Part shown: positions 4,319 through 24,721 of the stretch, piece by piece | Numbering within the stretch: the stretch's first letter is position 1 | Layout: the number at the start of each line of letters is the position of its first letter | Origin: Rhizobiales bacterium Ga0077530 | GTDB taxonomy: Bacteria > Pseudomonadota > Alphaproteobacteria > Rhizobiales > Hyphomicrobiaceae | Assembly (NCBI GenBank): GCA_001464855.1 | Contig: LNEA01000645.1 | Span: 1-42,028 of the forward strand | DNA length: 42,028 bases | Direction of reading: 5' to 3' | Position numbers and translations under genes: made by a program | The notes under the pieces: model-generated | What the model saw: only the letters and a program-made list of their open reading frames with translations | Databases searched by the model: none | What the model was told of the DNA's origin: nothing

Positions 4319-5989
4319 TCAGGCCGCCTTACCGAGGCGGAAGGTCAACGGGACACCGCCCAGCAGAACCTTGTCGCCGTCCTTCAGAACGGTGTGTTCC
4401 AATACCTCGCCGTTGATGACGATCGGATTGGCGGCCGAGCGATCGGCAGTCTGATTGTGAAGTTCGAAGGTGCCGCCGTCGCTCAACGTCAACAGCGCAT
4501 GATGGCGCGACACGCGAACGTCGTTGATGCGGATGTCGTCACCGCTGTGACGCCCGACCACGACGCGGGGACTGGTGATCACCGCAGAACCGTACTCGGG
4601 ATTGTCGAAAACGAGCGTCGCAAGGATCGGCTTGTCCGGCGCCACGGGATCTTCGGCGACGCGAGGCTCATCCGGCCGCACCATCGGGACGACACTCGTG
4701 CTGCCCTCGACCATGCTTTCACCGTAGCGCTTGACCAGCACGCGCGCGAACGGCACCGGCAGCCCCGTCGAGAACATGCACATGAGCACGGCGGCGGAGA
4801 ACATCAGCGGCGAGACGATGCCGCGCTCGAGGAACACGACGCAGACGATCAGGCCCATCAGACCTTTGGTCTGCAGGAAGAGCCCCACCGCCGCCGCGAA
4901 CGGCCACGGCTCACCCGACATTCGAGCTGCGATGCCGTGTCCGGCCATCTTGCCGACCACGCACAGGAACGAGCTGATGATGAAGAGTAGCCAGACGTTG
5001 ATGTCACCGATCGCAAAATCTGTCTTCAAGCCGGTATTGAGGAAGAAGAACGGCATCAGCACGAGGCTGGTTGGCCGATCCAGGCTGTGCGCCGCCATCT
5101 CGCGCACCTTGTCAGGCAGGAAGACGCCAGCGACGAACGCGCCGAGAACCGGGTGCAGCTCGGTGATCGAAGTGATCGCCGACGCGACGAAAATTGAAAG
5201 TGCCGCGAGGGTCATGACGGCGCTTTCGGGCGCCGCCTTCGCCATCATCCGCTCCAATATTGGATTGGCCACGAACAGAACGAATCCGATGCTCAGCCCG
5301 CCGCCGAGGAGCGCGATGGCGCACGCGCGGTACAAGCTGCCGGTGCCCGTGAGCGCGAGAACGACAGCGAGCCCAATCCACATCATCGTATCGGCAAGAC
5401 CGGCAGAGGCCAACGAGTAGGCGCCGATCCGGCGTTGCGTCAGCCCAAGCTCACGCAGGATGAGCGCAAGAATGGGCAGGGCTGAAACGGCGATCACGAG
5501 GCCGTAAGCGAGGGAAAAGGAAAATAGGTTTGTGTTGACGCCCTTGGAAGCGGGGATCGCGGCATAGATGAGGGCGCCGCCGGCCATGCCGAACGCCCAG
5601 CCGAACAGCATGCCGACAATGCCCGTGAGTGCGATGCTGCGGCCGGATTTGGCGATGAGTTCCTTGTCGGCGTCGGCGCCGGCGAGGAAGCCGAAGAGAC
5701 AGACGGCGATGGTTGCCAGCGCCGCGATACCGTCGGTACGATTGACCAGCTTCTCGCCCTGCTTGACGACACCGAACAGGGTATGAAAGAGCTCAGGCGC
5801 AAAAGCCCCGAACAGTGCCGGGCCGAGCAGCACGCCGCAGAAAATCTGAACGACACCGAGCGGGAACCACCTGCCGAGTTGCGCCGTCCGCCATAGCAGG
5901 TAGGGAATGAGGATGACGATACAGGCTTGAATGAGGAGAATATTGGCGGGCTTCATCGCCCGCAGCATCTGCATCAGTTCATCGATCAT
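4319..5989 (-). CDS. CPA2-family cation/proton antiporter fused to a C-terminal FHA domain
   Basis: A 556-residue inner-membrane protein. Residues ~15-420 form a Kef/NapA-like exchanger with about 12 helices. The N-terminal LGVVQIFCGVLLGP segment, the STELHPVLGAFVAGVFLP-like core (ITELHPVLGAFVAG) and LNTGLKTDF are typical of the CPA2 family. After a linker rich in V, P and D (residues ~430-445) comes a complete FHA domain: VVVGRHSGDDIRI, then SRHHA, then the conserved N and NG (VINGEV). FHA domains bind phosphothreonine peptides. Many CPA2 proteins carry a nucleotide-sensing RCK/TrkA-N domain at this place, so the FHA domain probably replaces that control input. The gene follows the FHA protein gene (6218-6799) in the same direction, with a kinase and phosphatase nearby. 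The ion (K+ or Na+) cannot be told. Confidence 0.88.
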   Translation of the reverse strand: MIDELMQMLRAMKPANILLIQACIVILIPYLLWRTAQLGRWFPLGVVQIFCGVLLGPALFGAFAPELFHTLFGVVKQGEKLVNRTDGIAALATIAVCLFGFLAGADADKELIAKSGRSIALTGIVGMLFGWAFGMAGGALIYAAIPASKGVNTNLFSFSLAYGLVIAVSALPILALILRELGLTQRRIGAYSLASAGLADTMMWIGLAVVLALTGTGSLYRACAIALLGGGLSIGFVLFVANPILERMMAKAAPESAVMTLAALSIFVASAITSITELHPVLGAFVAGVFLPDKVREMAAHSLDRPTSLVLMPFFFLNTGLKTDFAIGDINVWLLFIISSFLCVVGKMAGHGIAARMSGEPWPFAAAVGLFLQTKGLMGLIVCVVFLERGIVSPLMFSAAVLMCMFSTGLPVPFARVLVKRYGESMVEGSTSVVPMVRPDEPRVAEDPVAPDKPILATLVFDNPEYGSAVITSPRVVVGRHSGDDIRINDVRVSRHHALLTLSDGGTFELHNQTADRSAANPIVINGEVLEHTVLKDGDKVLLGGVPLTFRLGKAA

Positions 5990-6217
5990 CCGACGCCGCG
6001 CCCCAACCGCTCAATGTGAGAAAATCAATCGCCTGCGTCGTTGGACAGCAAATAGGCCCGTCCGTTGGTGCAAGGCGCACACTCAAAGTTCGACGGGCGC
6101 ACATCGCGCCAGCCGGTAACACATGAACTCGAACTGGACTGCCCACCCGACACTCGGCGACCCGTCACATTCGGTAGGAGATCACTAGGGACTGAATTCG
6201 TAGAACGGCGCGGAGAC

Positions 6218-6799
6218 CTACTTCAGCTCGCCCCAGTCGAAGTCGGGTCCGCACAACGGCACGAACAGAAGCGTCGTACGCCCCATCATCACCTTATCGT
6301 GCGGCTTGAGATCGACATTGGACGTGAGCGCTGCATCGTTGTGATAGACGAGGTTCGGCCGCTCGAGATTGGGCACGAGTTGATACGACCGCTTGCGCTC
6401 GTCGTAGGTGAGAAACGCCTGCTTCTCGCCCGAAATCGCATCGTCGCCGAAGTCGATCGGAACCCGCTGGCTGCCGGAACGGCCGATGGTATTGCTGCCC
6501 TTGAAGATCGGCCTGAAGTTGCCCTTGCCGGGGCCGTCGAGAACGACCAGCCAACCGACCACCGGATCTGCACGCGTGCTCTCGTAGCCCACGGTCTCGT
6601 AACCGAGGATGCGCGTGTGTCCGCTTTCGGCCGCAGCACGCGGAGCCGACGCAGCCGGCGATTGGATCGGTGATGGCGTCGCAAGATGCGTCGCCGCTCC
6701 GCCGCTGTCATGATTGCCGAGGACGCGTGTTTCTTCCTCGGCCATATCGCGGCGATGGCCGCCTCCGGCACCCTTGCCGTCACGTGAGGGCTGCTTCAT
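6218..6799 (-). CDS. FHA-domain phosphothreonine-binding protein
   Basis: A 193-residue cytoplasmic protein. Residues ~1-75 are a low-complexity Gly/Ala/Pro/Ser region with two near-identical motifs, EETRVLGN around T24 and GHTRILGY around T62. Residues ~80-190 form an FHA-like domain: VVGWLVVLDGPGKG, then NTIGRSGSQRV, DFGDDAISGEKQAF, LERPNLVYHND, and the end LLFVPLCGPDFDW, which is typical of a bacterial FHA subfamily. The usual SxxH of the FHA pocket reads SGEK here, so the phosphate pocket may be altered. By analogy with GarA-type proteins, the TR motifs are likely kinase targets that the FHA domain could bind itself. AGAGGT (6805-6810 on the plus strand) precedes the ATG. The kinase gene is divergent, 327 bases away. 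Confidence 0.85.
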   Translation of the reverse strand: MKQPSRDGKGAGGGHRRDMAEEETRVLGNHDSGGAATHLATPSPIQSPAASAPRAAAESGHTRILGYETVGYESTRADPVVGWLVVLDGPGKGNFRPIFKGSNTIGRSGSQRVPIDFGDDAISGEKQAFLTYDERKRSYQLVPNLERPNLVYHNDAALTSNVDLKPHDKVMMGRTTLLFVPLCGPDFDWGELK

Positions 6800-7126
6800 G
6801 GTCGACCTCTTTACAGTTCTTCAAAAGTCATGGTGGCGAGCATTATCGTGCGCCTAAACGGGCCTCGGAGACAAGCACTACCCAGACTCGGCGAACTCGG
6901 GCAAGATCATGTCGCTGGATGGAAAAAACAAGCAATCGAGAGACCAAATCAACGTGAACACCCCGATCGATTGCAGTGCCATTGGCCATCCGGGCACCAC
7001 GAAGTCTGCACTGCGTCTTGCGAAGCGCAACGACGGCATGGCCCGGAAGTGCTATTCCCCGAACCTGTGACGGCGTGCGGTTTAGAAGTTAAAGTTGATT
7101 AACGGGCGCGACCGCGGGGCAGCAAG
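6800..7126. other. Divergent intergenic region between the FHA protein and the kinase
   Basis: 327 bases lie between two divergent starts and must hold the promoters of both halves of the signalling island. Base composition is closer to 55% GC than the flanking genes. Short open frames here show no family-like sequence. I could not pick a convincing -35/-10 pair on either strand. GGGG at 7116-7119, 7 bases before the GTG at 7127, is the likely kinase ribosome-binding site. Confidence 0.5.
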
Positions 7127-8764
7127 GTGAGTCGTCAACCGCTTCCTAGAAATACTATCCTGGGGTCTGGCCTCGATCAATACAGGATCGACAGCGTCCT
7201 GGGGCCGGGCGGCTTCGGCATCACGTATCTCGCCGAGAGCCTGCGCATCCATCGCGAAGTCGCGATCAAGGAATACTTCCCCGCCGAGTTCGCCTACCGC
7301 GATGGCGCGACGACGGTCCAGCCGTTGCGATCCGGGGGCCGCGATCTGTTCGCGGACGGTCTACGCTATTTTGTCGAGGAGGCCCGTGTCCTCGGCCGCT
7401 TCCGTCATGAACACATTGTCCGGGTAATCGGCCTGATCGAGCAGTTCGGCACCGCCTACATGGTGCTGGAGTTCGAGGAAGGGGTGAGCTTCAAGCGCTG
7501 GCTGCAGCAGCTCGGCCGGGCACCGACGCAATCGGAACTCGACGCGGTGCTCGAACCGATCCTGTCGGCGCTCGATACCATTCACGCCCAGCAGCTCTTT
7601 CACCGCGACATCGCCCCCGACAACATCATCATCCGCCCCAACGGCAAACCGGTACTGATCGACTTCGGCGCCGCCCGCCATTTCGCGCGCGAGAATAGCC
7701 ATACGCTCGGGGCAATCGTGAAATCGGGCTACTCGCCGCCCGAGCAGTACACCCTCGACACCAAGCTGCAGGGAGCCTGGAGCGACGTCTACGCGTTGGC
7801 GGCAACGATGCACCATGCGCTGATGGGCCGGCCTCCCGAGGAAGCCTCGAAACGTCAGCTCCACGACACGACGTTGCCGATCGAGGATCACCTGGAGCCA
7901 GTGCTCCTGAGCAGGTATCGCCCGGCGTTTCTCGATGGCGTCAATGCCGGCCTCGCCCTGAAACCGCGGGAACGCCCCGCAACGATCGCCGAATGGCGCC
8001 CGATGCTGATGGGAGACGCGCACGGGGGGCATGCGCACGGGAGCGGGTCCGACAATCGATCCGGCGCGCACGAGCATCGCAATGGGCTTGCTTCCGCCGT
8101 GCATCGCCACACCCGCTCGACCGGCAGAAGCGACGAAACTGGGACAGTCGAGGAGCCACGCACCCAACCCCGGCTCGCGGACGCTGCCCCATTTCCCTCT
8201 TCGCCGAGCGGGGAATCCGGCTCAGGGCTCGCTTCGGCAGTTCAGGCCCTAGCGCTGGCGGCGGCGGCGCTCGGCGGGGTCGGGTTTTTCTGGTTTGGCG
8301 GCGTAGCTCACACCGCGAGTTGGGGAAGCGCGATTGCGTTTATCGTGTCCCTCGGCATCTTTGTTGCTGCCGGCATTGTCGACCTGAACTGGCGTAGTGA
8401 CGGTCTGGACCCGCTTGGCCAAGGGCATTTGCCCAATACCGCCGCCGTTGCGGTGCTGGCATTAGCGGCATTCTGGTTGCCACCGTTCGTGCTGCCGACC
8501 TACTATTTGTCGGCAGCACTGATTGTTTTGGCCGCGCTGAGTTGGCTCGCACCGCGAAGCAGGCTCGTCGCGGGTGGCGTTGTGATTGTCTGCGTGGCGC
8601 ATCTGGTGCTGGCCTTGTGGGTGCTTGCGGCGCAGCCGTTCGGCGCCAACACGTTTGTGATGCTGTTGGGGATTGGTCTCGCTGTTCTTGCGGGACTGAG
8701 CATGGGGGCGGCCGGAATGTGGATGCGGCGAGGCGCGTTGCGGCAAGATGGGGCAAACGCATGA
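7127..8764 (+). CDS. Membrane-anchored bacterial Ser/Thr protein kinase (Hanks type)
   Basis: A 545-residue protein. The kinase domain spans residues ~17-290. It has the glycine loop LGPGGFGITY (25-34), catalytic Lys48 in VAIKEYF, a Glu at 84/85 for the alpha-C salt bridge, HRDIAPDN (159-166, catalytic Asp161 and Asn166), DFGAAR (179-184) and SGYSPPEQYT in the activation segment. HRDIAPDN in place of HRDLKPxN is a variant seen in a bacterial subfamily. After a His/Gly/Ser-rich linker (~295-370), residues ~372-531 form about six hydrophobic helices with short loops and no extracellular PASTA or other sensor. The kinase thus sits on the cytoplasmic face of the membrane. Its substrates are plausibly the FHA proteins and the antiporter. 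The PP2C gene follows 75 bases later. Confidence 0.93.
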   Translation: MSRQPLPRNTILGSGLDQYRIDSVLGPGGFGITYLAESLRIHREVAIKEYFPAEFAYRDGATTVQPLRSGGRDLFADGLRYFVEEARVLGRFRHEHIVRVIGLIEQFGTAYMVLEFEEGVSFKRWLQQLGRAPTQSELDAVLEPILSALDTIHAQQLFHRDIAPDNIIIRPNGKPVLIDFGAARHFARENSHTLGAIVKSGYSPPEQYTLDTKLQGAWSDVYALAATMHHALMGRPPEEASKRQLHDTTLPIEDHLEPVLLSRYRPAFLDGVNAGLALKPRERPATIAEWRPMLMGDAHGGHAHGSGSDNRSGAHEHRNGLASAVHRHTRSTGRSDETGTVEEPRTQPRLADAAPFPSSPSGESGSGLASAVQALALAAAALGGVGFFWFGGVAHTASWGSAIAFIVSLGIFVAAGIVDLNWRSDGLDPLGQGHLPNTAAVAVLALAAFWLPPFVLPTYYLSAALIVLAALSWLAPRSRLVAGGVVIVCVAHLVLALWVLAAQPFGANTFVMLLGIGLAVLAGLSMGAAGMWMRRGALRQDGANA

Positions 8765-8839
8765 GACGCGATCGCTACCGCGCCGGCATGAGACCTGTCG
8801 GGATTTCGGCTTCTCAGCTCAAGTCTTGGGGCGGGCGCC

Positions 8840-9967
8840 ATGATTGAACTCGATACCGCCCAGCACGAGACGATCGGCGCACGCGCCGAGCAGCAGGACG
8901 CCGCAGGGTCGGCCCCGCTCGGCAGCGGGGGTGGCGCGCAGCTCCTGGTCCTCGCCGATGGCCTCGGCGGCCACGCCGACGGTGCGCGCGCGTCGAGGAT
9001 GGTGATCGAAACATTCGAAGATGCCGTTAAAGGTGGCCTCTTTGATGAGCCCGGCGGTCGCCGACAGGCACTCCATGGCGCAATCCAAGAGGTCAACAAG
9101 CGCATCCACGAGGCCACTGATCCCAACGACGGGCATCGCAGCATGGCCAGCACCGCCGTGGCAGCCATTCTCGCCAACGGCACCGTGCGCTGGATCAGCG
9201 TCGGAGACAGTCATCTCTACGTATGCCGCAATGGTCGCCTGTCGAAACTCAATGCAGACCATTCCCAGGCCGGCATCATGATCCGGCATGGATACTCTCC
9301 CAACGACGAGGCGGTGCTCAACGCGCGATCGGTGCTGGTGTCCGCGTTGACCGGCCGGGACATCGAGGAGATCGACACCCCCGCGCATGACGTGGCGCTC
9401 GAGATCGGCGACGTCGTTCTGCTCGCCAGCGACGGCTTGAATACGCTCAGCGATACCGAAATCGCACTCGCCATCGATCAGACCTACGACAAAGGCGCCA
9501 AGGCGATCGCCGAACTTCTGGTCCAGATGGTCGTCGAGCGGGGCTTGCCTCGCCAGGACAATGCGACAGTCATCGTGAGCCGAGTGCTTGGCCGCGGCGC
9601 TCACGCCATGACGGAAGACGGCCCCTCACTGCCGCTGACCCAAGCCAACCCGCGGACGGACATCCCGACGACCCCGGTCGCGGCGGTCGACGAAGTGGCG
9701 CCCGTAGCCGACAGAACCGATCCGCCACCGGCTCGGCCTGCGTCACGGGACGAGGCGATTACGGCCGCGATGCCTGCCCCGAACCCGCAGGTGGAGGCCC
9801 ACTTGGCGCCCGGCGCAGGGGCATCTGCGGCACCCCGGCAGCGATCCGCCACGGACTACGCGGCTGCCGACGCTGGAGCCGCACGGCAGAAACGGCGCTA
9901 TATCCTGGTCAGGATCTTCCTAACGACGCTGGCCGCCGCGGCGGCCGCAACCTACATCCTGGCCTAG
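8840..9967 (+). CDS. PP2C-type Ser/Thr protein phosphatase with C-terminal membrane anchor
   Basis: A 375-residue protein that should reverse the adjacent kinase. The catalytic domain (residues ~1-255) shows the metal-binding motifs of the PPM/PP2C family: EQQDA with Asp20, LADGLGGH with Asp40, VGDSHLYV, LASDGLNTLSD and QDNATVIV. The usual R-xx-NQD near the N-terminus reads RAEQQDA, with Asn replaced by Gln. Residues ~255-345 are a Pro/Ala-rich linker and residues ~353-375 are a basic flank (QKRRY) plus one hydrophobic helix ending at the last residue, that is, a tail anchor. Phosphatase and kinase are therefore both tied to the membrane that holds the FHA-antiporter. A gap of 75 bases and the same direction suggest one transcript. 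Confidence 0.93.
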   Translation: MIELDTAQHETIGARAEQQDAAGSAPLGSGGGAQLLVLADGLGGHADGARASRMVIETFEDAVKGGLFDEPGGRRQALHGAIQEVNKRIHEATDPNDGHRSMASTAVAAILANGTVRWISVGDSHLYVCRNGRLSKLNADHSQAGIMIRHGYSPNDEAVLNARSVLVSALTGRDIEEIDTPAHDVALEIGDVVLLASDGLNTLSDTEIALAIDQTYDKGAKAIAELLVQMVVERGLPRQDNATVIVSRVLGRGAHAMTEDGPSLPLTQANPRTDIPTTPVAAVDEVAPVADRTDPPPARPASRDEAITAAMPAPNPQVEAHLAPGAGASAAPRQRSATDYAAADAGAARQKRRYILVRIFLTTLAAAAAATYILA

Positions 9968-12238: not shown

Positions 12239-13324
12239 GTGGATATGACCCTCCGCACCTACCTGCGCCCGACCGGCCTCGTGATGCCGGCTCACACCCG
12301 CCCGGCCAACGCGCCCGGCGACGTCATCGCCCTCGCTGGTCGCGGCGATCTGGCCTGTGCAGCGGTGCAGGTGATCGCGCGCAGCGGGCCGACGCGCGAT
12401 ATTTCCTACGCCATGTCTGCCGCTGGATTGCGGGCGTGGGCCGCGGACGGCGCCCTCCAGGGGGCGTTCTCGGCGCTGCTAGATCGGCACGAACGCCCCC
12501 GCCCACCACTGCTCACACTCACCCTCGACCGCCCGCGCATCATGGGCATCGTCAACGTCACGCCGGACAGCTTTTCGGATGGCGGGCTGCTCGGCTCCAC
12601 CGACGCAGCGATCGCGCACGCGCTGCGGCTTGCGGCCGAGGGCGCTGACATCCTCGACATCGGGGGTGAGTCGACACGACCGGGCTCGCAGGCGATTACG
12701 GTCGATGAGGAATTGCGCCGTGTGATCCCGGTCATCGAGGGGCTTGCCGGCAAAACCACGGCTCTGATTTCCATCGACACACGCAAGGCCGAGGTCATGC
12801 GCCACGCGTTGGCGGCGGGCGCCCACATCATCAACGACGTCGCAGCGCTAACCTATGAACCCGCTTGCATGGAGGTCGCGGCGGAGTCCGGCGCGCCAGT
12901 CGTCCTGATGCACGCCCAGGGCGATCCGCGCACGATGCAGACAGCGCCGCACTACGATGACTGCCTACTCGACGTTTACGATTGGCTCGCCGCCCGCATC
13001 GACGCATGCATCGCCGCGGGGATCGATCGCACGCGCCTGGTCGTCGACCCCGGCATCGGCTTCGGCAAGACTGTCGACCACAATCTCGAACTCATGGCCG
13101 GCCTCAGCGTGCTTCATGGGCTCGGCGTGCCCGTGTTGCTCGGCGCGTCGCGCAAGCGATTCATCGGCACACTCACGGGCATCAATATTGCCCGCGAGCG
13201 CGTAGCCGGATCGATCGCGGCGACACTGCATGGCGCCGCGCAGGGGGTTCAGATCCTACGCGTCCATGATGTCGCCGAGACGCGACAAGCGCTCACGTTG
13301 TGGGAGGCGATGCAGCGCGGATAG
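12239..13324 (+). CDS. folP: Dihydropteroate synthase
   Basis: FolP joins 6-hydroxymethyl-dihydropterin pyrophosphate and p-aminobenzoate in folate synthesis and is the sulfonamide target. At 361 residues it is ~90 longer than E. coli FolP because of an N-terminal extension seen in alphaproteobacterial homologues. The TIM-barrel core begins near residue 98. It shows GIVNVTPDSFSDGG, DIGGESTRPGS, ISIDTRKAEVM, INDVAAL, LMHAQGDPRTMQ, DPGIGFGKT and GASRKRFIG, covering the pterin and pABA sites. Two starts are possible, GTG 12239 and ATG 12245. The Shine-Dalgarno signal is weak for both because the ftsH terminator ends right there. It is convergent with the rhodanese gene. Confidence 0.95.
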   Translation: MDMTLRTYLRPTGLVMPAHTRPANAPGDVIALAGRGDLACAAVQVIARSGPTRDISYAMSAAGLRAWAADGALQGAFSALLDRHERPRPPLLTLTLDRPRIMGIVNVTPDSFSDGGLLGSTDAAIAHALRLAAEGADILDIGGESTRPGSQAITVDEELRRVIPVIEGLAGKTTALISIDTRKAEVMRHALAAGAHIINDVAALTYEPACMEVAAESGAPVVLMHAQGDPRTMQTAPHYDDCLLDVYDWLAARIDACIAAGIDRTRLVVDPGIGFGKTVDHNLELMAGLSVLHGLGVPVLLGASRKRFIGTLTGINIARERVAGSIAATLHGAAQGVQILRVHDVAETRQALTLWEAMQRG

Positions 13325-14378
13325 CTTTTCTCATCCTCTCCCGTAAAGCAGGGGAGAGGGGATCTATATATCCAGCGCCAACCCTTCGAATTCGTAAGGC
13401 TTTCAATCCGGCCTGACGCATCAGGAACACCGCGGCGTCGGAGCGCCGACCCGTCCGGCAATAAGCAACGTACTCACGATTCGGATCGAGACCGCGGGTG
13501 CGCTCGCGGATCGTCTCGAGCGGCATCAAACGCGCGCTCGGCAAACGCCACAGCTCCCATTCCTCGTCGGTCCGGCAGTCGATCAGATCCGCTTTGCCCT
13601 GCCGCAATTTCTCGGCGGCGGCCTCGGCCGAGATATCACCGAGCAGCTTCGATTTCAGCAGCAGATCGAAATCGGACTTCGCGAGCCGGAACAGCTCACC
13701 GTCCTCACGCATCCGCACGGTCGCATTGCGCGTGCTGTTCTGGAGCAAGGCCTCTTCGCCGAACGTCGCGCCGGCTTCGATCGTTGCGACCAGATCGTCG
13801 TCACCTTTGTCGTTCGTCCGCAGAATGTCGGCGCTGCCGCGTTCGATGACGTAGAAATAATCGCCGGGATCGCCCTCACGCACGACGTCTGTGCCGCCTG
13901 GGATCAGATGCGTCGTCATAGCCTCGGCGCAGCGCACGATGTGCGTGAAGCTCATCTGCTTGAACGGGTCCGCCTTCACCAGCGACGCAGCGCGGATGCG
14001 CACGCCGTCTTGTAACGCCGCGAGGCTGCGTTGCTCCTGTTCGCCCGACAGCAGCGCGTCGAGACGCTCGCCCTCGATGACCAGATAGACCGACGGCCGC
14101 GTCAGCACGAGGCTCGCGCCGCGCGGAATGGTGTAGAGGATCGCCGGCTCGCGCGCGCCTTCGTCGACGCTGAACGCCGCCAGGTGATCGCCGCCATCAT
14201 TGCTGCTCATGGCGAGTCCGCCCTCGAGCAGAACCACGAGATCGCCGGGTGCCACGTCGACTGGATCCCGGGCTGCTCCGCTGGTTACGCCAGGGCGTTC
14301 GATCAGCGAAACGAGCCCCGCTTCGGGAACCTGGGCGAACAGTCGTGTGCGGCGCAGCTTGCTGGTGACCGGTTCCAT
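13293..14378 (-). CDS. Cyclic-nucleotide-binding domain plus rhodanese domain protein (apparent 3' frameshift)
   Basis: Residues ~1-125 look like a degenerate first nucleotide-binding-like unit. Residues ~135-245 form a CNB domain with GDPGDYFYVIERGSADI and the phosphate-binding segment FGEEALLQNSTRNATV. Residues ~250-335 form a rhodanese domain with the active-site loop YCRTGRRSDAA, whose Cys is the persulfide carrier. There is no DNA-binding helix-turn-helix, so it is probably a ligand-regulated sulfur or signalling protein rather than a Crp regulator. Near 13396 the frame slips: dropping one A there gives the normal rhodanese ending YEFEGLALDI and a TAG at 13364-13366. As written, the protein runs on with an unrelated basic tail to 13293, overlapping folP by 32 bases. 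Confidence 0.82.
   Translation of the reverse strand: MEPVTSKLRRTRLFAQVPEAGLVSLIERPGVTSGAARDPVDVAPGDLVVLLEGGLAMSSNDGGDHLAAFSVDEGAREPAILYTIPRGASLVLTRPSVYLVIEGERLDALLSGEQEQRSLAALQDGVRIRAASLVKADPFKQMSFTHIVRCAEAMTTHLIPGGTDVVREGDPGDYFYVIERGSADILRTNDKGDDDLVATIEAGATFGEEALLQNSTRNATVRMREDGELFRLAKSDFDLLLKSKLLGDISAEAAAEKLRQGKADLIDCRTDEEWELWRLPSARLMPLETIRERTRGLDPNREYVAYCRTGRRSDAAVFLMRQAGLKALRIRRVGAGYIDPLSPALRERMRKAIRAASPPTT
13335..13359. repeat. Inverted repeat (hairpin) between convergent folP and CNB-rhodanese genes
   Basis: CCTCTCCC (13335-13342) and GGGAGAGG (13352-13359) form an 8-bp stem with a 9-base loop. It lies 10 bases after the folP stop and 4 bases beyond the frame-corrected stop of the opposing gene. 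It lacks a U-tract on either strand. Its CCTCTCCC...GGGAGAGG form resembles dispersed intergenic palindromes of alphaproteobacteria, so it may be a repeat serving as a 3' stabiliser. Confidence 0.5.
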
Positions 14379-14477: not shown

Positions 14478-14903
14478 TCACACGACCTTCCCACCATCAG
14501 ACTTAGCGTGGTTTTCCGGCAGGGCCGCTTCGCGCCAACAGGCAATCGCAAGCCCCAGGCAGATCAGCCCGGATACGACGTGGAACAGAATGGCACGCAT
14601 CCAGCCGGTGGCCTGCAGCACGATCGCGGCGTCAGCCAGGCAGGCCAGTGCCGCAAGTCCCAGCCATAAAGCCAGAGCGCGCCATTCCCTGAGGACTGCT
14701 AGCGCAATCACGAGCAGCGCCAGCCAGAGATCGCGGACTGCAACGACATAGTGGACGTGTGCCGGTGCGGCAGGCGTGTCGAGGCCGAAGAAGCGGGCGG
14801 CCGAACGGGGCACGAGGCCGAACCGCAGGCCGATCAGCCCGAGCACCAGCCCGGTCGCAATCGCCAAGCCTTGGAGCCAGCGTCGCCGAATGCGGGGTTT
14901 CAA
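14478..14903 (-). CDS. Small four-helix membrane protein, DUF4267 family
   Basis: About 141 residues, mostly hydrophobic, with four predicted membrane helices. The pattern IGLRFGLVPRSAARFFGL, then VRDLWLALLV, WRALALWLGLAAL, LADAAIVL and a final ILFHVVSGLICLGLAIA matches the DUF4267 family, whose function is unknown. A TTG at 14903 is chosen as start because a perfect AGGAGG (14910-14915 on the plus strand) lies 6 bases before it. An in-frame ATG at 14921 lies upstream of that site. The gene sits just beyond the rpoC terminator, so it is probably weakly transcribed by readthrough or has its own promoter. Confidence 0.72.
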   Translation of the reverse strand: MKPRIRRRWLQGLAIATGLVLGLIGLRFGLVPRSAARFFGLDTPAAPAHVHYVVAVRDLWLALLVIALAVLREWRALALWLGLAALACLADAAIVLQATGWMRAILFHVVSGLICLGLAIACWREAALPENHAKSDGGKVV

Positions 14904-14925
14904 CAGTTGCCTCCTCGCCATCGGC

Positions 14926-14963
14926 AAAAAAAGAAGGCCGGGGCAGAATGCACCCCGACCTTC
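14926..14963 (-). terminator. Rho-independent terminator of the rpoBC operon
   Basis: Read on the minus strand, GAAGGTCGGGG and CCCCGGCCTTC form an 11-bp stem with one G-U pair and a 9-base loop, followed by seven T. It starts 33 bases after the rpoC stop and is the strongest terminator in the window. Confidence 0.92.
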
Positions 14964-14996
14964 CGCTTTTCAGATCCACCTCGCGAGGAACGCAGC

Positions 14997-19235
<4,239 letters not shown>

Positions 19236-19407
19236 CGCATCTCTCCTCGTTCGGGACGTCGGGGCGGGCCGTCCCAGAAGATCGGATCAGGGTCGTCAAC
19301 GCGCACGCGATCCATTCATGTGCGCGCGATCTCGTCTTTCGGCTCAGCTCGATCGAGCCGGCTGAAATCGTCGCCATCCGCATCGCGCGGACGGCGACGT
19401 CATCACA

Positions 19408-23537
<4,130 letters not shown>

Positions 23538-23656
23538 GTGTGCTCCTCTTCGCGTCGCGGATGCCGATGGGCGCTGGCCACCCATCAAAGCATCCCGTGT
23601 GTGTCTTCGGTCGTCATGGACCGGTCGATGGCGACCGATCCTCGAGCAACTCGCCG

Positions 23657-23726
23657 GAGGGTCCCTCACTGCGCTCGCGCGGACCCTCGGGGGAGGTGCC
23701 CAGGCCGGCTTCGGATGAAGCCGGCC
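23657..23726 (-). promoter_or_regulatory. Two hairpins in the rplL-rpoB spacer (attenuator or processing site)
   Basis: Stem 1 is GAGGGTCC (23657-23664) with GGACCCTC (23681-23688). Stem 2 is a perfect 10-bp GGCCGGCTTC (23703-23712) with GAAGCCGGCC (23717-23726) and a 4-base loop. Neither is followed by a U-run on the minus strand. In E. coli the same spacer holds an attenuator and an RNase III site that set the ratio of L7/L12 to RpoB, and a similar role is inferred here. Confidence 0.55.
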
Positions 23727-23747
23727 CAGTCACGTCAATGGCGCGCC

Positions 23748-24116
<369 letters not shown>

Positions 24117-24202
24117 TTCAGTTGTTCCTTGATCGGTTCGAACCGCTCAGCGGTCCAGGTTGTGATGTTCTTCGCTCGCGGCGACCAGCGCCGCGCCACA
24201 TG

Positions 24203-24721
24203 TCACGCAGCTTCTTCCTTGCCGGCTTTCGCCTGAACGACGCGCGCGAGCTTGGCTCCCGGCTCCATGATCGTGCGGGCGATTTTGGTCGCCGGCGCGT
24301 TGAGGAGGCCGATCAGCTTCGCCCTCAGCTCGTCGAGCGAGGGTAGGTCTGCGAGTGCCTTGACGCTTGCGGAGTCGAGGACGGTTTTGCCCATCGCGCC
24401 GCCGAGGATCACGAGTTTGTCGTTTTCCCGGCTATACTTGACGGCAATCCTCGCGGCGGCCATCGGATCGGTCGAGTAGGCAATGCACGTTTGCCCCTTG
24501 AACAAATTCGATATGCCTTCCGAGTCAGTCTCCTTCAGCGCCAGGACTGCCAGCGTATTCTTCGCCACCTTGACCGCTCCGCCCGCTTCTTTCATGCGCT
24601 TGCGGAATTCGGTCATCTGGGCGACGGTCATGCCGGCATAGTGGGCAACGACGACCACGCCCGTGTCCTTGAACACGTCGTGGAGCGTCGTCACGAGCTC
24701 TTGCTTGGCAGCTCTGTCCAC
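24203..24721 (-). CDS. rplJ: Ribosomal protein uL10
   Basis: A ~172-residue base of the ribosomal stalk that binds 23S rRNA and bL12 dimers. [22 protein letters not shown] and [12 protein letters not shown] are family features, and the C-terminal Ala/Lys-rich helix binds bL12. GTG 24721 is preferred because family members begin VDRAxK and GGAG lies 9 bases upstream. An in-frame ATG at 24736 would add five atypical residues (MECSQ) and would overlap that ribosome-binding site. An L10-type leader lies upstream, so autoregulation by the L10-L12 complex is expected. Confidence 0.96.

Follow-up and report, generated by a model that had tools for sequence, protein, structure and literature searches.

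Ligand binding to RCK-type domains is a known way of gating bacterial CPA2 antiporters, as in KefC, where these domains are gated by glutathione adducts, and the small FHA proteins GarA and OdhI control 2-oxoglutarate metabolism. The closest precedent for the locus described here is, however, a transporter of Mycobacterium tuberculosis: Rv1747 carries FHA domains, is encoded in an operon with the Ser/Thr kinase PknF, and is reported to be positively modulated by this kinase (PMC3908365). Here, we have analysed a stretch of 42,028 nucleotides (the window), i. e. contig LNEA01000645.1 (C645) of the 4.46-Mb draft genome of Rhizobiales bacterium Ga0077530 (G000, 87.9% complete). At positions 4319-9967, it contains a 5.7-kb set of four genes for a membrane Ser/Thr kinase, a PP2C phosphatase, a small FHA protein (FHA2, hereafter the adaptor), and a CPA2-type antiporter with its own FHA domain. 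We propose that the four proteins form a phosphothreonine switch on the antiporter, an idea to which we give an even chance of being correct.

Four genes for a putative phosphothreonine switch

An earlier note on this DNA had placed the four genes within 5.7 kb and the kinase, the phosphatase and the antiporter in the membrane. Both statements hold: The genes are intact, their coordinates are confirmed, their assignments are supported by Pfam matches, motifs and folds, and hydropathy predicts transmembrane segments in all three proteins. The antiporter and adaptor genes are read leftwards and the kinase and phosphatase genes rightwards. Thus, the locus consists of two divergent pairs, and a single operon is excluded. 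The relevant features are:

4319..5989, minus strand: CPA2-type cation/proton antiporter with a C-terminal FHA domain, 556 amino acids (Pfam, profile and fold model)
4358..4564, minus strand: FHA domain of the antiporter, residues 476-544 (Pfam FHA; Arg480, Ser494, Arg495 and Asn521 kept)
4949..4951, minus strand: Lys347 of the antiporter, profile-aligned with the GK motif of NapA
5390..5392, minus strand: Asp200 of the antiporter, profile-aligned with the ion-binding Asp157 of NapA and Asp156 of KefC
6218..6799, minus strand: FHA2 adaptor with a disordered tail (residues 1-74) and a non-canonical FHA domain (about 80-181; AlphaFold2, Foldseek)
6614..6616, minus strand: Thr62 (GHTRIL) in the tail of the adaptor, a candidate site of phosphorylation (invariance; aliphatic residue at +3)
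6728..6730, minus strand: Thr24 (ETRVL) in the tail of the adaptor, another candidate site (invariant in 16/16 and in 6/6 sequences)
6800..7126, no strand: 327-bp intergenic region from which the adaptor and kinase genes diverge (computed gap)
7127..8764, plus strand: Hanks-type Ser/Thr kinase, catalytic domain at about 19-244, followed by about five transmembrane segments (Pkinase E=4e-29, motifs, hydropathy)
8840..9967, plus strand: PP2C phosphatase with a C-terminal membrane anchor (PP2C_2 E=7e-11, above cut-off; motifs)

The antiporter matches the Pfam families Na_H_Exchanger (E=2e-32, residues 36-409) and FHA (E=2e-11), and has about 11 transmembrane segments. With a profile of its relatives, NapA (E=3e-8) and KefC (E=8e-4) were found, and the fold of the predicted model matches both proteins. 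Since its score with the NCBIfam CPA2 model TIGR00932 (85.7) is below the cut-off of 238.3, it is an outlying member of the family. The position of Lys347, which is aligned with the lysine of the NapA GK motif (presumably Lys305), is occupied by Lys or Arg in all 12 aligned antiporter rows. Likewise, the position of Asp200 is Asp or Glu in 12/12 rows, and its counterparts in KefC and NapA are the ion-binding aspartates (PMC11150392). With its CPA2 fold and both key residues, the protein is a putative cation/proton antiporter. The K+/H+ flux that the earlier note had proposed to measure fits the class of the protein, but potassium is not established as its cargo: Where KefC has the Gln-Asp of the QD motif, this antiporter has Ala199-Asp200, and the cation is therefore not readable from the sequence. 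The phosphopeptide-binding site of the fused FHA domain is in place, with the elements GRHS, SRHH and Asn521 invariant in seven homologues, and the phosphate-binding residues Arg480, Ser494, Arg495 and Asn521 are conserved across the fused FHA domains. The solved sequences closest to this domain are GarA, OdhI and the FHA domain of Rv1747.

As in the antiporter, the active-site motifs of the two enzymes are present. The kinase has the P-loop GPGGFG, VAIK with its lysine, HRDIAPDN, and IDFG. The phosphatase contains the metal-site motifs ADGLGGH, GDS, ASDGL (SDG) and QDNAT (DN), gives a match below cut-off to the NCBIfam model Stp1_PP2C (E=6e-36), and ends with a single transmembrane segment at residues 355-373. 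The two genes are separated by 75 bp; in the intergenic region at 6800..7126, no sigma-70-like site was scored.

The adaptor is an FHA domain protein by its predicted fold and marginally so by sequence. It is below the cut-off of the Pfam FHA model (E=0.075), and of the curated models, OdhI (NF041660) gave no match at E<=1 and FhaB (NF049868) a score of 22.5 where 125 is needed. The AlphaFold2 model, in contrast, gave 80 Foldseek matches at E<=1e-3, with GarA and OdhI as the best matches in the PDB and DgcB also among the best. Arg107, Ser123, Asn149 and Asn154 of the phosphate-binding site are kept, but the canonical SRxH motif is absent: SGEK(Q) stands in its place, and the histidine of the motif is replaced.

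It is the disordered tail of the adaptor that contains a candidate site of phosphorylation, as a threonine in the N-terminal tail is conserved beside the FHA domain in the manner of GarA/OdhI-type switches. In 16 adaptor-type proteins (FHA2 and a small FHA3 form), Thr24 and Thr62 are the only invariant residues of the tail. Thr62 is also invariant in 20/20 FHA2 proteins, 15 of them from modules without an antiporter, which makes 31 distinct homologues over both alignments. The case for Thr24 is less uniform: In the wider FHA2 set (n=20), its column is not one of the conserved ones, and a faster alignment reduced to ten adaptors showed Thr62 but not Thr24 as invariant. Tail-shuffled controls of this reduced alignment had on average 0.02 invariant tail columns, and in none of 150 did the number rise to the two columns observed, which include that of the start methionine; as the sequences share ancestry, this result is support and not a probability. 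Many FHA domains prefer an aliphatic residue at +3; such a residue follows Thr62 in most homologues and both Thr62 and Thr24 in the protein of the window. The conservation of the tail makes phosphorylation of Thr62 by the kinase a well motivated proposal.

Our model for the switch is as follows: (i) The membrane kinase would phosphorylate Thr62, and perhaps also Thr24, in the tail of the adaptor. (ii) The phosphothreonine would be read by the FHA domain of the antiporter, the reader that we favour, and the adaptor would thus be brought to the transporter. Alternatively, it may be read by the FHA domain of the adaptor itself, as in GarA and OdhI, so that docking would be released or blocked. 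(iii) Docking would change cation/proton exchange, in one direction or the other and for whichever cation the antiporter carries. (iv) The tail-anchored PP2C phosphatase would remove the phosphate and reset the switch.

The kinase might instead act on the antiporter directly, with phosphorylated loops or the linker being bound by the fused FHA domain in cis or across a dimer and with the adaptor as a competitor. There is a model for this in Rv1747, an FHA-bearing transporter reported to be positively modulated by the kinase of its operon, PknF (PMC3908365). The FHA domain of the antiporter resembles that of Rv1747, and some fused antiporters have no adjoining adaptor gene. In two alignments, however, the linker between the transmembrane domain and the FHA domain showed no conserved threonine, unlike the tail of the adaptor, and we consider this Rv1747-like route improbable.

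Recurrence of the block and of the FHA-antiporter linkage

We searched 397 genomes of the order for relatives of the locus. Neighbourhoods were called with locus models that had been built from few sequences, with the main genes confirmed by Pfam; many of the carriers are draft metagenome-assembled genomes (MAGs), and several of the contigs are short. By name, antiporters with an FHA domain were found only in MAGs of the Hyphomicrobiales. The complete four-gene block with the same divergent order is present in G016 (Ga0077537, locus L041) and G075 (Ga0077524, L082), which belong to another genus of the same family. Gene by gene, the proteins share 47-63% identity with those of the window; the flanking genes differ, and in both genomes an extra small FHA gene is located 3' of the antiporter gene. 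A third case comes from another family: In G161 (99% complete), a kinase and a PP2C gene lie on one side of the antiporter-FHA gene, and these are the only Ser/Thr kinase detected by Pfam and the only PP2C in this genome. On the other side are three FHA genes, of which the adjoining one is small and belongs to the adaptor superfamily. Since the G161 kinase scores far lower on the profile of the block kinases and its PP2C is very distant, this linkage was probably made independently. Thus, relatives keep the four-gene order, whereas a lack of co-occurrence of the four genes in relatives would have refuted the idea of the earlier note. The fusions of a CPA2 antiporter to an FHA domain that it proposed to look for beside kinase and phosphatase genes do occur elsewhere, as part of a recurrent linkage of FHA domains to antiporters.

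The co-occurrence of the four genes exceeds chance. That the antiporter-FHA gene came to lie beside a kinase module fortuitously could be argued from the genus mates, which keep only the PP2C gene at this place, and from several antiporter-FHA genes that are solitary. Such an accident is very improbable in view of the same order between different flanks in another genus and of the independent linkage in another family, where both the kinase and PP2C are very distant. The recurrence of the gene set in relatives makes it probable that protein phosphorylation turns the antiporter on and off. The proteins could also belong to the threonine phosphorylation pathway of a type VI secretion system (T6SS), since PpkA, PppA and Fha represent the same three protein classes. 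However, an antiporter is no part of a T6SS, and the T6SS protein VipA (PF05591) was not found in G000, G016, G075 and G161, two of which (G000 and G075) have a completeness of about 88%. This agrees with the earlier statement that no secretion genes are seen here, and we regard this origin as barely conceivable.

The link between the FHA domain and the antiporter is also evident beyond the complete blocks. In a tree of the antiporter clade with 18 rows, nine antiporters are fused to an FHA domain, six are encoded beside FHA genes (one of these rows being truncated where its contig stops), and three, forming one clade, have neither. In five of the six neighbour rows, an unfused antiporter stands beside a membrane-anchored FHA gene and a small FHA gene. 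Among the genomic evidence, this alternation between fusion and neighbourhood speaks most strongly for an action of the FHA domain on the antiporter. An FHA domain is not a general attribute of this antiporter group: Relatives elsewhere in the phylum match only up to the FHA part, and no FHA genes were found near five of them in the short stretches that were checked.

Two further observations concern these antiporter loci. Next to antiporters of this clade, the same pair of FHA proteins is found repeatedly (L039:6307-9074 and L072:10607-13454); the smaller has about 250 amino acids with a Cys-rich end in L039, and the larger has 644-669 amino acids with an unrecognised C-terminal part. The larger protein was considered as a kinase and rejected, as Pfam gives only an FHA domain. 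Moreover, the genome of the window has a second antiporter-FHA contig (C122, L038), which looks nearly identical to L048 of Hyphomicrobium sp. bin.89. This MAG is placed in another genus, and the contig may be a stray in either bin.

An antiporter-free relative and the history of the locus

The nearest kin of the block are neither the T6SS trios nor the GarA trios named in the earlier note but a widespread module of the Hyphomicrobiales. FHA2 relatives are present in 44 of the 397 genomes, and all 15 FHA2 loci that were read (L128-L142) contain FHA2, PP2C and a divergent kinase gene, most of them with a membrane-anchored FHA gene before FHA2. The module, also seen in L051, L052 and L044, thus has the kinase gene on one side and, divergently, the genes for the membrane-anchored FHA protein, FHA2 and PP2C on the other; its FHA2 proteins carry the invariant tail threonine in the consensus [RK]TQLVRG. 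It shares the kinase, FHA2 and PP2C families and the divergent order with the block of the window, but the membrane-anchored FHA protein takes the part of the antiporter-FHA protein in it, and its kinase is longer, with about 770-910 amino acids in most cases. None of the 15 loci has an antiporter of this clade among the module genes. Therefore, the block is a variant of the module with the antiporter-FHA gene in the place of the membrane-anchored FHA gene, and in our model it is a paralogue of the module. We found no description of the module and no name for it in the literature. G016 has both the antiporter and the antiporter-free version, and in the genome of the window a partial antiporter-free FHA/FHA2/PP2C module is found at the end of contig C568.

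Such a widespread trio raises the question of whether the kinase, the adaptor and PP2C form a general GarA/OdhI-like module that acts on metabolic enzymes or envelope factors, with the antiporter-FHA protein as one client or as a neighbour that merely senses the state of the kinase. The GarA/OdhI-like nature of the adaptor and the conservation of Thr62 in the antiporter-free trios would fit with this. On the other hand, the antiporter-FHA gene adjoins the adaptor gene on the same strand in three genomes, and the sole kinase/PP2C pair of G161 sits at the antiporter locus. Moreover, the copy in the window looks specialised because its genome has the separate module on C568. All in all, we consider a general module unlikely, albeit the most serious of the alternatives. 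We give somewhat less than an even chance to a circuit dedicated to the antiporter, in which the kinase would write on the GarA-like adaptor, the fused FHA domain would read and PP2C would erase, so that ion or pH homeostasis would be set by Ser/Thr phosphorylation and not by the binding of nucleotides or glutathione.

Several points weigh against the proposed switch. First, Thr62 is equally conserved in the antiporter-free modules, and the phospho-switch itself is thus not antiporter-specific; it predates its coupling to the antiporter. Second, in the stretches that were read, a Ser/Thr kinase is missing from five of the nine rows with a fused antiporter. With draft MAGs and some short contigs, a missing kinase gene is weak evidence. 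Third, the block is rare, as antiporters of this clade were found in nine of the 397 genomes, and it is absent from the genus mates. Finally, the AlphaFold2 model of the antiporter is of moderate confidence (pLDDT 66), so that a contact between the FHA domain and the transport core is not readable from it; the placement of the FHA domain in this model was not used.

The block is patchy as well as recurrent. In the window, it is flanked on the left by genes for an RNA methyltransferase, a DUF3829 protein, a major facilitator superfamily (MFS) transporter and PanC, and on the right by FtsH and, by position, a FolP-like gene. Three genus mates in which the locus is assembled (G001, L087; G002, L085; G004, L086) have at the same chromosomal place only MFS-PanC-PP2C-FtsH: Their PP2C is kept at 58-62% identity, and the kinase, adaptor and antiporter genes are absent there. 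The simplest reading is that the three genes were lost from an ancestral block. In view of a poorly resolved PP2C tree, they may alternatively have been gained beside a resident PP2C gene. Misbinning of the contig is ruled out, as its FtsH is 93-94% identical to that of the genus mates and the flanking genes have the same order. Carriage by viruses was rejected too, since no relative was found in viral contigs, and the matches on plasmids were distant antiporters with 30-36% identity, covering the query up to residue 449 at most and leaving the FHA domain unmatched.

Farther along the window, a single protein encoded just past FolP (13293-14378, minus strand) combines a cyclic-nucleotide-binding domain with a rhodanese domain. 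Three very long open frames without Pfam matches (748, 808 and 1510 amino acids) lie at 14751-24236 on the plus strand. The 1510-amino-acid frame is antisense to rpoB (19344-23669, minus strand), and the other two are mostly antisense to an adjacent minus-strand frame of 1412 amino acids; these are shadow frames of high-G+C DNA and not genes.

Comparison with known systems

In a literature search of incomplete coverage, we found neither an FHA-bearing antiporter nor such an antiporter module. If the proposed switch is real, cation/proton exchange would be directly controlled by phosphothreonine, and a set of 5.7 kb would encode the writer, the reader and the eraser together with the adaptor. 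Moreover, the switch would offer a concrete output, and Thr62, Thr24 and Arg480 as candidate residues, for a kinase-FHA-phosphatase module of the Hyphomicrobiales that has no apparent known function.

With the PpkA/PppA/Fha proteins of T6SS, the block has in common that a membrane kinase, a PP2C phosphatase and an FHA protein are encoded together, but its partner is an antiporter, and VipA was not found in its carriers. The K+/H+ antiporters KefC and KefB resemble the antiporter in their CPA2 fold, the equivalent ion-binding aspartate and a C-terminal cytoplasmic regulatory domain; this domain is of the RCK type and accompanied by the QD motif in KefC, whereas it is an FHA domain accompanied by Ala199-Asp200 here. 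GarA and OdhI, in their pathways with PknB and PknG, are small FHA proteins like the adaptor, with the same predicted fold and a disordered N-terminal tail that contains a conserved threonine. The adaptor differs from them by its divergent sequence, by SGEK in the place of SRxH, and by its location next to a transporter gene. PknF/Rv1747 comes closest, as an FHA-carrying transporter, similar to the antiporter in the sequence of its FHA domain, is encoded beside the Ser/Thr kinase that modulates it. Rv1747 is, however, an ABC transporter, and the abstract on it mentions neither an adaptor nor an adjacent PP2C gene (PMC3908365), whereas the locus described here joins a CPA2 antiporter to both.

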